Source: Larus michahellis (Eukaryota; Chordata; Aves; Charadriiformes; Laridae). From it: DNA of 64,000 nucleotides. The first letter of the stretch is position 1, and the number at the start of each line of letters is the position of its first letter. Both the position numbers and the translations under genes were made by a program. The notes beneath the pieces were generated by a model. That model searched no databases, was not told the origin of the DNA, and was given only the letters and a program-made list of their open reading frames with translations. This document shows, in pieces, positions 39,001-42,000 of this stretch. The stretch covers positions 4,987,001 through 5,051,000 of the forward strand of contig NC_133911.1 of NCBI RefSeq assembly GCF_964199755.1, read 5' to 3'.

Positions 39001-42000
39001 CTAGCAAGAGCTGCATGCAACTGTGGGATTCAGAAATACCCCAATTTCTACTGCTGGCTCAGTATCTTCAGTGTCAGTTCAAAGGCCACCTCCAACAATA
39101 ATATAACCAACAGCTTTAAATTAACAAGTGACATAACAGTTCTAGTATTCTACTGGCTTACTGGCAGCTCCATTTCTGCAAAAGAGGCAGAAAAACAGCT
39201 CTTCCGGTACAGTTTTTGCAGTAGCAGGTAATTCCCTTTCCACAAGGCAAACTGCCTCCCCCCTGGTTTCTGAACAGAGCTGTCTGGCTGTGGAAGCAAC
39301 AAAAGCTTCAATTCCCAGGCAAGCCTTCATGCACTCCCACACAGTACCAAGCATAGTTCAAACTGTTTTCCTTCTTTGTCAGCAGAAAAACAACTCCACT
39401 GAACTTGGACTACTGACTTCTAGGAAACCTGCACTGCATGCAGACATTGCCACACCACTTTTCAACTGGAAGGGGACAAGATTCCTTTATGCTGCTATAA
39501 GAAGGAAACAGTAATGAGGCATTGAAGTCAAAGCCATCCTGTCAAGCTGCATACACTGATGTTCAAGGGAATAGCTCTGTGTTCCTATACTGGACCACAC
39601 CGGTACAGCATCTTGGAAAGTCTGTCAGGATAAGAAGCAGAGCAAAGAAACAGCAAGTCCAACAACCTACTGATCTTGCTTTCCATCCATACTGGACAGA
39701 TACAGCCTTCATTCCCTGGCTGTCCGCTACGCCTTCTCCCACATGTGACTCATTCTTACCTTCTTTATTTTCCAGGATGTTGGGGGCAAAGCCACCCTCA
39801 TCACCCACATTGGTTGCATCCTTGCCATACTTTTCTTTGATCACATTTTTCAGATTGTGATAGACCTCGGCACCAATGCGCATTGCCTCCTTGAAACTGT
39901 CAGCACCCACAGGGAGGATCATGAACTCCTGCATAGCCAGTTTATTGCCAGCATGGGAGCCACCATTGATCACATTGAAAGCCTTGGAGTAACCAAAAAG
40001 AAGAGCCAAGTTAGAAGGTTTCAGGGTAAATCAGTAACAGCATTTATGTTAAGACTCTTCATTCTCTAGAAAACTTGATCTAAGACCACAAGACATCATG
40101 AAGCACCTGGTCAGATCAGGTCTTTAGGTAGCCCTATCAAGAGACTTACAGGAACTGGAAGAATGACTTCTGCATTTCCAGCAAGGTCAGCAATGTGACG
40201 GTACAAGGGAACACCCTTCTCAGCAGCACCAGCTTTGCATACAGCCAGAGATACACCCAAGATGGCATTGGCACCAAATTTGGCTGAAATAGGAAGAAAT
40301 TGTTTACAGAAATGTTATGTCTTCATTAAGAGCCTCAGCAATACCAGCACCACAGTCTTGCTTATGGTAGTGCACAGCACATGCCATGCACTGCCCATTG
40401 TTTCTGATAAGGTAAGCTACAATTCTATAAACAAATCTTTATGGCTCCCTGCCACCGCCCCCCCCCCCCCCCACCCATCACTGCAACACAAAGCCCACTT
40501 ACATTTGTTCTCAGATCCATCCATTTCCAGCATCAGTTTGTCAATCTTTTCCTGCTCCACAACGTTGACATTCTGCAGAGACAAGCAAGCAAAGCACTGC
40601 TTGACACCAAACATGGCTCTACATACTTTCATCTACCCACTGCATTTTTACTTCCTTAGCAGGCACCAAGACTGGCTTAAGGGTAACTACCAACAGTTGA
40701 AGGGACTAGTTCTAGGCATTATCACACAGCAGCATCTTCTGGTCACTTCCAGCAGACCAAGGCTGACAGGTAAGTTGGACACATCAAAAGCTTGTTTTGT
40801 TCTTCACATCCAGAGCTGCAAAACTATCATGTCCCTTGACTTCCTGACATTTAAACTGTTACCTGCCTGGCACGGCCTAGGAGAACACCCCAGTTTATGC
40901 CCACTGCCCCTTTAGTGCAAGCTCAAAGACAAACAGCTTGCTCACAACATACGCCCATTTGTGACTTAATACATAGTGTTTGGAACTGTCACTAAGAACG
41001 TGCAACCACTTTATGCATTACCACTTATTTTTGCATCATCCTTTCTAGGTAGGGCTTAACACCCACAAAGCACACAAAAATCGCACTCAAGCAGGTTTTA
41101 CTAAGATCCCCTCCGATTCCCTTCCAAATTAGCCAGCTTCGATAAAACCCAGTCCCTCCCCATCATTCAGCCATCCTTTTAAGCGTAAAGCAGATTGTAT
41201 CTTAACTGCACACCACTGAAGTTCCCAGGTGCTTAAGTACTTCTGCATATTACAACACTGGGCTGCTAGAGATTGTTTTGATTAAATGTTATATCCACAG
41301 TCATTAAGTAAAGCAATCGCTATAGGTCAGTTTGTTCACATGCACTCCAATACACAGGTTAACACCCCCCCATGTAATACGTTTCCTGTAACTGTTTCTA
41401 GAGAGACAGCCCATCAATTAGGACACACTGAACTGGCATTAGCTAATGTTAGCAAAAGACAGATTGCTCCTACCTTGCTAATCAGTGCAGGTGCAATTGT
41501 TTTATTGACGTGCTCAACAGCTTTTGAGACACCTGTAAGGAACAAGCAAATTGGACACTGGTCAACCACACTGGTTATGCAGGCATTAGTAGGTGATCTC
41601 GGTATCAATAAAAGTCTCAAGAATACCACCTCATGCTATTCAAAACCCCAATCCAACCTGAGCTCACAGCCAAATCTAAACACTTAAGAGATCATCTTGA
41701 CTGAATGGAAGTTGCATGAAGTAAGCATCATCTAGGAATGCCTGCTGCAATGTTAGTTTGCAAGACCATGCACTGGAGAAATTCATCCAAGTGACAAGGT
41801 TGCACTGAATGCACATCCATTACCTGTGTACACAATGCTGTCGCCAGGAACTCGTTAACATATTTAACAGCTCTGGATACACCTGACAGAAGTGAAATGG
41901 ACAAGAGAATCAAGGAAGAGATGAAGACTCACAGCCAAAACCAAAGCCAGTCATGCAAGAAAAAGGAAAGGACACAAATAGGTAAACAGACCTACAGGTC

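Follow-up and report, generated by a model that had tools for sequence, protein, structure and literature searches.

A diverged tandem copy of exon 4 in the ENO1 gene of Larus michahellis, probably a functional alternative exon

The alpha-enolase gene ENO1 of Larus michahellis carries, 350 nt upstream of its exon 4, a second segment (41824..41882, minus strand; 59 nt, phase 1 to 0, encoding (G) + 19 residues), here called exon 4', which by sequence comparison is a real, diverged tandem copy of exon 4. Judged from the DNA, exon 4' is probably a functional alternative ENO1 exon, a tandem duplicate that would replace exon 4 in certain cells or stages. Coordinates are those of the window (the whole 64,000-nt stretch analysed here), and all ENO1 features lie on its minus strand. 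Tissue forms of enolase are explained in textbooks by three genes; if our reading is true, a second alpha-enolase produced through exon choice would extend this three-gene picture by a further level, provide another glycolytic example beside PKM and PFKP, and single out a helix for the non-glycolytic roles of enolase.

Results

The ENO1 coding span (exons 2-12, 35960..45615; the exon numbers presuppose a non-coding exon 1, which we take to exist) forms an uninterrupted 434-codon reading frame, in which the standard exon 4 (41474..41532; 59 nt, (G) + 19 residues) is separated from exon 4' by an intron of 291 nt (41533..41823). An earlier note on this DNA had described the second copy at 41824-41882 as a 59-nt segment with the phases of exon 4, with AG and GT sites, without a stop and offset by 350 nt upstream of exon 4, and had counted 10 of 20 residues as identical to exon 4; all of this proved accurate, the phases being 1-0 and the 10 residues including the junction glycine. 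Among the 19 full codons, 9 specify the same residue in both exons, and 34 of the 59 nt are identical. In a comparison of the 19 full codons of exon 4 with 127,868 frames from the two strands of the window, exon 4 itself scored 90, exon 4' 44 and the next best frame 30; of the 505 frames that have AG and GT in register, the best after these two exons scored 7. The same kind of scan with ENO1 exons 2, 3 and 5-11 (exon 12 was left out) over the minus strand from 35500 to 50000 found off-target matches whose z reached 3.6-4.1 at best, compared with 5.98 for exon 4'. In the whole genome (1.4 Gb, 616 contigs), the sole match to a 301-nt stretch around exon 4', among the best candidates scored, was the stretch itself, and the 20-residue exon 4' peptide likewise had one match, itself, at E values up to 10 (best candidates scored).

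Both exon copies are bordered by plausible splice sites, and on a donor matrix they score in the same range as the remaining ENO1 exons. The acceptor region of exon 4' (41883..41907; ...ctcttgtccatttcacttctgtcag) has pyrimidines at 12 of the 16 positions from -20 to -5, the same count as exon 4, which bears out the good pyrimidine tract that had been claimed for it, and over 201 nt of sequence above it, the only other AGs lie at 45 and 109 nt. The donor (CAG/GTAATG, 41818..41826), with T at +5, scores 3.36 on this matrix, compared with 3.38 for exon 3 and 4.28 for exon 4, and exons 6, 8, 9 and 10 score below it; of the 793 GTs in the gene region, 12 score at least as high as the exon 4' donor and 8 at least as high as that of exon 4. 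The splice signals of exon 4' are ordinary. The proposed junction ends, 44118 on the upstream partner exon 3 (44118..44213, ending in phase 1) and 40572 on the downstream partner exon 5 (40503..40572, starting in phase 0), are correct. Joining exons 3, 4' and 5 yields a complete 434-residue enolase, the swap keeping the frame. A transcript with exons 4' and 4 together reaches a stop at codon 97, within exon 4, and one with neither at codon 71, within exon 5, in each case far upstream of the last junction. The frame logic put forward earlier, in which both exons or neither lead to a premature stop and only one of the two preserves the frame, is thus sound, and from it, together with the logic of nonsense-mediated decay (NMD), we infer that exons 4' and 4 would be mutually exclusive.

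We next consider where exon 4' came from. The earlier note had derived tandem duplication from homology extending into the upstream intron, and this argument fails in the adjacent flanks, where the 60 nt next to the exons align at shuffle level (p 0.35 and 0.54 under two scoring schemes) and intron homology therefore drops out as proof. Over the upstream 150 and 291 nt, a single 18-nt match was recovered at discordant offsets (p 0.006 to 0.10, by length and scoring), and the downstream flanks of exons 4' and 4 gave no homology (p 0.41-0.71); homology lies in the exon, with none detectable in adjacent flanks. Tandem duplication nevertheless stands as the simplest origin, because exon 4' is closer to ENO1 exon 4 (34 of 59 nt identical) than to exon 4 of ENO3 (27/59) or ENO2 (22/59). 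Among the best 12 rows for each locus in the same genome, a second exon 4 was not found in ENO2 (L026) or ENO3 (L027); the highest scores below that of exon 4 itself were 18 (ENO2) and 21 (ENO3), both lacking AG and GT in register, and the one ENO2 row that had AG and GT scored 15 and lay beyond the 3' end of the gene. A duplication preceding the enolase gene duplications was accordingly set aside, exon 4' having no counterpart in those 12 rows of either paralogue, and since exon 4' is also nearest to ENO1, the copy probably arose within this gene.

Saturation of synonymous sites indicates that the duplication is probably old. In simulations that assume the flanks were copied too, a neutral distance under about 0.4-0.5 is unlikely. 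The neutral rate in birds is near 2 per site per billion years. The two together suggest an age of ~100 million years or more, an estimate that would no longer stand had the copied segment comprised just the exon and a few bases. Retrocopies, which might have served as fossil transcripts, were absent from the 24 matches listed, at three gene places (31 candidates scored).

The coding sequence of exon 4' looks selected, in line with what the earlier note had argued, in that neutral simulations rarely keep both an open frame and the protein similarity. Relative to exon 4, dN is 0.40 and dS is not computable, that is, saturated; third codon positions are changed in 12 of 19 codons, compared with 9/19 and 4/19 at the others, and 6 of the 9 identical residues differ by synonymous codon changes. 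Simulated copies started from exon 4 and evolved with local intron composition at kappa 2 or 4 and distances of 0.5, 0.62, 0.8 and 1.0, and runs with 23-27 nt differences were taken as divergence-matched, a run counting as successful if its frame was open and its BLOSUM score 44 or higher. At these distances in turn, matched runs succeeded in 24/6,759, 28/9,842, 13/6,351 and 5/1,982 cases with kappa 2 and in 62/5,967, 65/9,516, 31/7,763 and 4/3,101 with kappa 4, which amounts to 0.13-1.04% across the eight settings (from 4/3,101 up to 62/5,967). In unmatched runs, open frame, score and AG/GT sites were retained together in 223, 32, 3 and 1 per 20,000 (kappa 2) and in 411, 75, 10 and 0 per 20,000 (kappa 4; distances 0.5-1.0 in both cases). 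Copies without stops numbered 8,812 to 13,049 of 20,000 across the eight settings (10,418 at distance 0.62 and kappa 2).

On a profile of 70 of the 71 fetched prokaryotic enolases (the other, L095, is without the relevant part), exon 4' scored 21.7, well below exon 4 (45.2) and exon 4 of ENO2 (35.0) and ENO3 (40.8), so that constraint on it looks looser; the same score was reached by 45 and 101 per 10,000 matched neutral runs, with splice sites not required. Changes in exon 4' fall mostly at variable positions and most of the widely conserved ones are kept: G61, V62, A65, V66, V69, N70, A74 and L77 are retained, I73 becomes L, and S63 and A76, also kept, are variable positions. Mean entropy over the 70 prokaryotic enolases was 1.43 at kept and 2.08 at changed positions (one-sided p 0.044), a marginal test in which gaps were counted as a state and rows had been fetched with ENO1-like peptides. 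Y68, F72, T75 and T79 of exon 4' are absent from all 70 prokaryotic rows, and H68, T72 and S79 of exon 4 are each present in a single row. Over the N-terminal 140 residues, the Pfam Enolase_N score goes from 202.5 to 193.8 bits on the swap, a cost of 8.7. Because the exon is short, with neutral p-values of only ~0.001-0.01, and because exon 4' was chosen by eye as interesting, we regard protein-level constraint on it as likely rather than proven.

The swap would alter one helix of the enolase product, at residues 61-80 in its N-terminal domain, a helix that we take to lie on the surface and to carry no catalytic residues. E67/K71, a glutamate-lysine i/i+4 pair, becomes K67/E71, its charges reversed (a change also seen in 133 and 253 per 10,000 neutral runs, in a test chosen after seeing the sequence), and H68Y with T72F sets two aromatics four residues apart; the aromatics at 68 and 72 and the reversed charges could together create a new docking surface with catalysis kept. 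For the tau-crystallin and plasminogen roles proposed earlier we found no support. Human alpha-enolase binds plasminogen via its C-terminal lysine, and plasminogen binding presumably depends on that lysine and an internal loop, not on residues 61-80; the protein encoded here ends ...RNPRVN (window 35960-36029), without a terminal lysine. In chicken, according to the available part of PMC9012887, ENO1 mRNA falls from lens epithelium to fibres, a trend that neither shows nor excludes a lens form of ENO1.

RBFOX and QKI sites below donors activate upstream muscle or nerve exons, and possible candidates for such sites, on weak evidence, are present in the 291-nt intron: TGCATG (41772) and ACTAAC (41757), about 50-70 nt below the exon 4' donor, and ACTAAT at 41590, upstream of exon 4. 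Two TGCATG in 550 nt has p 0.011 against mononucleotide shuffles, in a survey of 12 motifs with uncorrected p-values, and the enrichment over the gene is slight since the gene has 10 in 9.7 kb. Repression by PTB was considered and dropped, TCTT being not enriched in the 118 nt above exon 4' (4 against 2.9 expected, p 0.32). Steric exclusivity through a short branch-point distance, for which a branch point less than ~50 nt from the upstream donor and an AG-free tract would be expected, was rejected on inspection of motif positions: ACTAAC lies about 70 nt from the donor, AGs are found above exon 4 at distances of 25 to 199 nt, many of them below ACTAAC at 41757, and a plausible exon 4 branch point lies 30 nt above its acceptor (with the AG at 25). 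Given the 291-nt intron and a branch point this near to the exon 4 acceptor, steric blocking is improbable. Choosing one of the two exons would keep the frame, and including both or neither would lead to an early stop and degradation of the mRNA; exclusivity would then most likely come about via regulated competition and NMD of the two out-of-frame products rather than steric blocking.

Discussion

The nucleotide sequence of exon 4', its frame, its splice signals and its pattern of conservation were observed directly. Chance resemblance of an unrelated intronic stretch to exon 4 is scarcely credible: only 20 residues are involved and the two exons, aligned by themselves as nucleotides, match modestly (p 0.006 and 0.018 relative to shuffled sequence), but a score of 44 stands against 30 for the best of the other frames of the 64 kb and 7 with splice sites in register, and the segment has exon 4's length and phases and sits right beside it. 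Once common descent is granted, the copy might be dead or dying, with exon 4' disused and its frame and splice sites intact by luck. Such a duplicate would agree with constraint looser than in ENO2 and ENO3, and about half of the simulated neutral copies (8,812 to 13,049 of 20,000) escaped stops; we nevertheless consider it unlikely, as an open frame with the observed similarity appeared in 0.13-1.04% of runs at matched divergence, AG/GT sites in addition survived in 32 and 75 (distance 0.62) or 223 and 411 (distance 0.5) per 20,000 unmatched runs, and third positions are the most changed (12/19 against 9/19 and 4/19).

Still less probable is that exon 4' acts as a poison exon, a known regulatory device, which would be included beside exon 4 so that the frame shifts and NMD reduces ENO1 expression, no second protein being made. 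The frame of a transcript with both exons does end at codon 97, well before the last junction, and the splice sites look usable; such an exon would require neither the length and phases of exon 4 nor enolase residues, however, and exon 4' retains both. Use of exon 4' as an alternative to exon 4 is the reading that we prefer, its transcription and any tissue restriction being what we infer from these features. A stronger version of it, which we offer only tentatively and think somewhat doubtful, is an old, selected form restricted to muscle or nerve through RBFOX/QKI, whose aromatic, charge-reversed surface (Y68, F72, K67/E71, C78) would target enolase to a partner, for instance a sarcomere or membrane scaffold.

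By the features testable in sequence, ENO1 exons 4 and 4' fit the class of tandem duplicated exon substitutions, or mutually exclusive homologous exons, of which 236 are reported for the human gene set in the available part of PMC9741552. As in that class, the exons are adjacent, homologous and of equal length, and their swap keeps the frame; the class is defined by transcripts, whereas the ENO1 pair is known here from its sequence. Residue identity in the ENO1 pair is 50%, and the accessible text of PMC9741552 gives 53.1% for regions with ligand residues and 37.4% for those without. PKM and PFKP are named as swapped-exon cases in section 10 of that text, and the PKM exons (9/10, PKM1/PKM2) are also treated in the portion of PMC12487847 at hand. 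All three are glycolytic enzymes with an internal homologous exon swap, but the swaps in PKM and PFKP alter an allosteric ligand residue, whereas that in ENO1 presumably touches no active-site residue. OGDH exons 4a/4b are a further tandem exon pair in a metabolic enzyme, with a tissue-linked choice, and the available part of PMC7969005 also places CUAAC motifs near or downstream of regulated muscle exons. Exclusivity in OGDH depends on branch points that follow the upstream donor by 25-41 nt (PMC7969005, same part), whereas the ENO1 ACTAAC is about 70 nt below; given this distance and the many AGs before exon 4, an OGDH-type mechanism is unlikely for ENO1.

ENO2 and ENO3 represent another route to tissue-specific enolases, by separate genes, with a second exon 4 found in neither (best 12 rows); mouse heart shifts from ENO1 to ENO3, and PMC12487847, in the portion at hand, treats the two as paralogues. 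Searches of open-access literature brought up no report of ENO1 exon 4', and RefSeq and Ensembl annotations may already predict the isoform. The words 'enolase' and 'ENO1' have 0 occurrences in the main text of PMC9741552 and in the accessible parts of PMC5740500 and PMC9013439, no ENO1 splice form was found in the available part of PMC9012887, and the alternative exon concerned in that of PMC2605723 is in Dcn.

Additional observations

The 18 top-ranked relatives of ENO1 (L030-L047) are enolases from archaeal MAGs, 60-73% identical to ENO1, with record titles that mostly name Nanoarchaeota, Woesearchaeota and similar groups; the bacteria on this list are 40 to 66% identical, and some other archaea range down to 35%. 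A degenerate RAVKYVNEF pattern, looked for in viral contigs on the chance of stray animal DNA, gave 0 matches. ENO3 (L027, G000:C37:20000-26000) lies on a 131-kb contig, in a fetched stretch of 70% GC, and its coding exons contain apparent single-base frame breaks (the exon 4 donor is shifted by one base, and the ENK codon of exon 5 has an extra A) that look like homopolymer assembly errors. In ENO1, exon 8 ends in CCC T/GTAAGT (window 37990 and 37739), and the junction codon makes residue 289 L (P-L-V-S), a position usually occupied by V in alpha-enolase.
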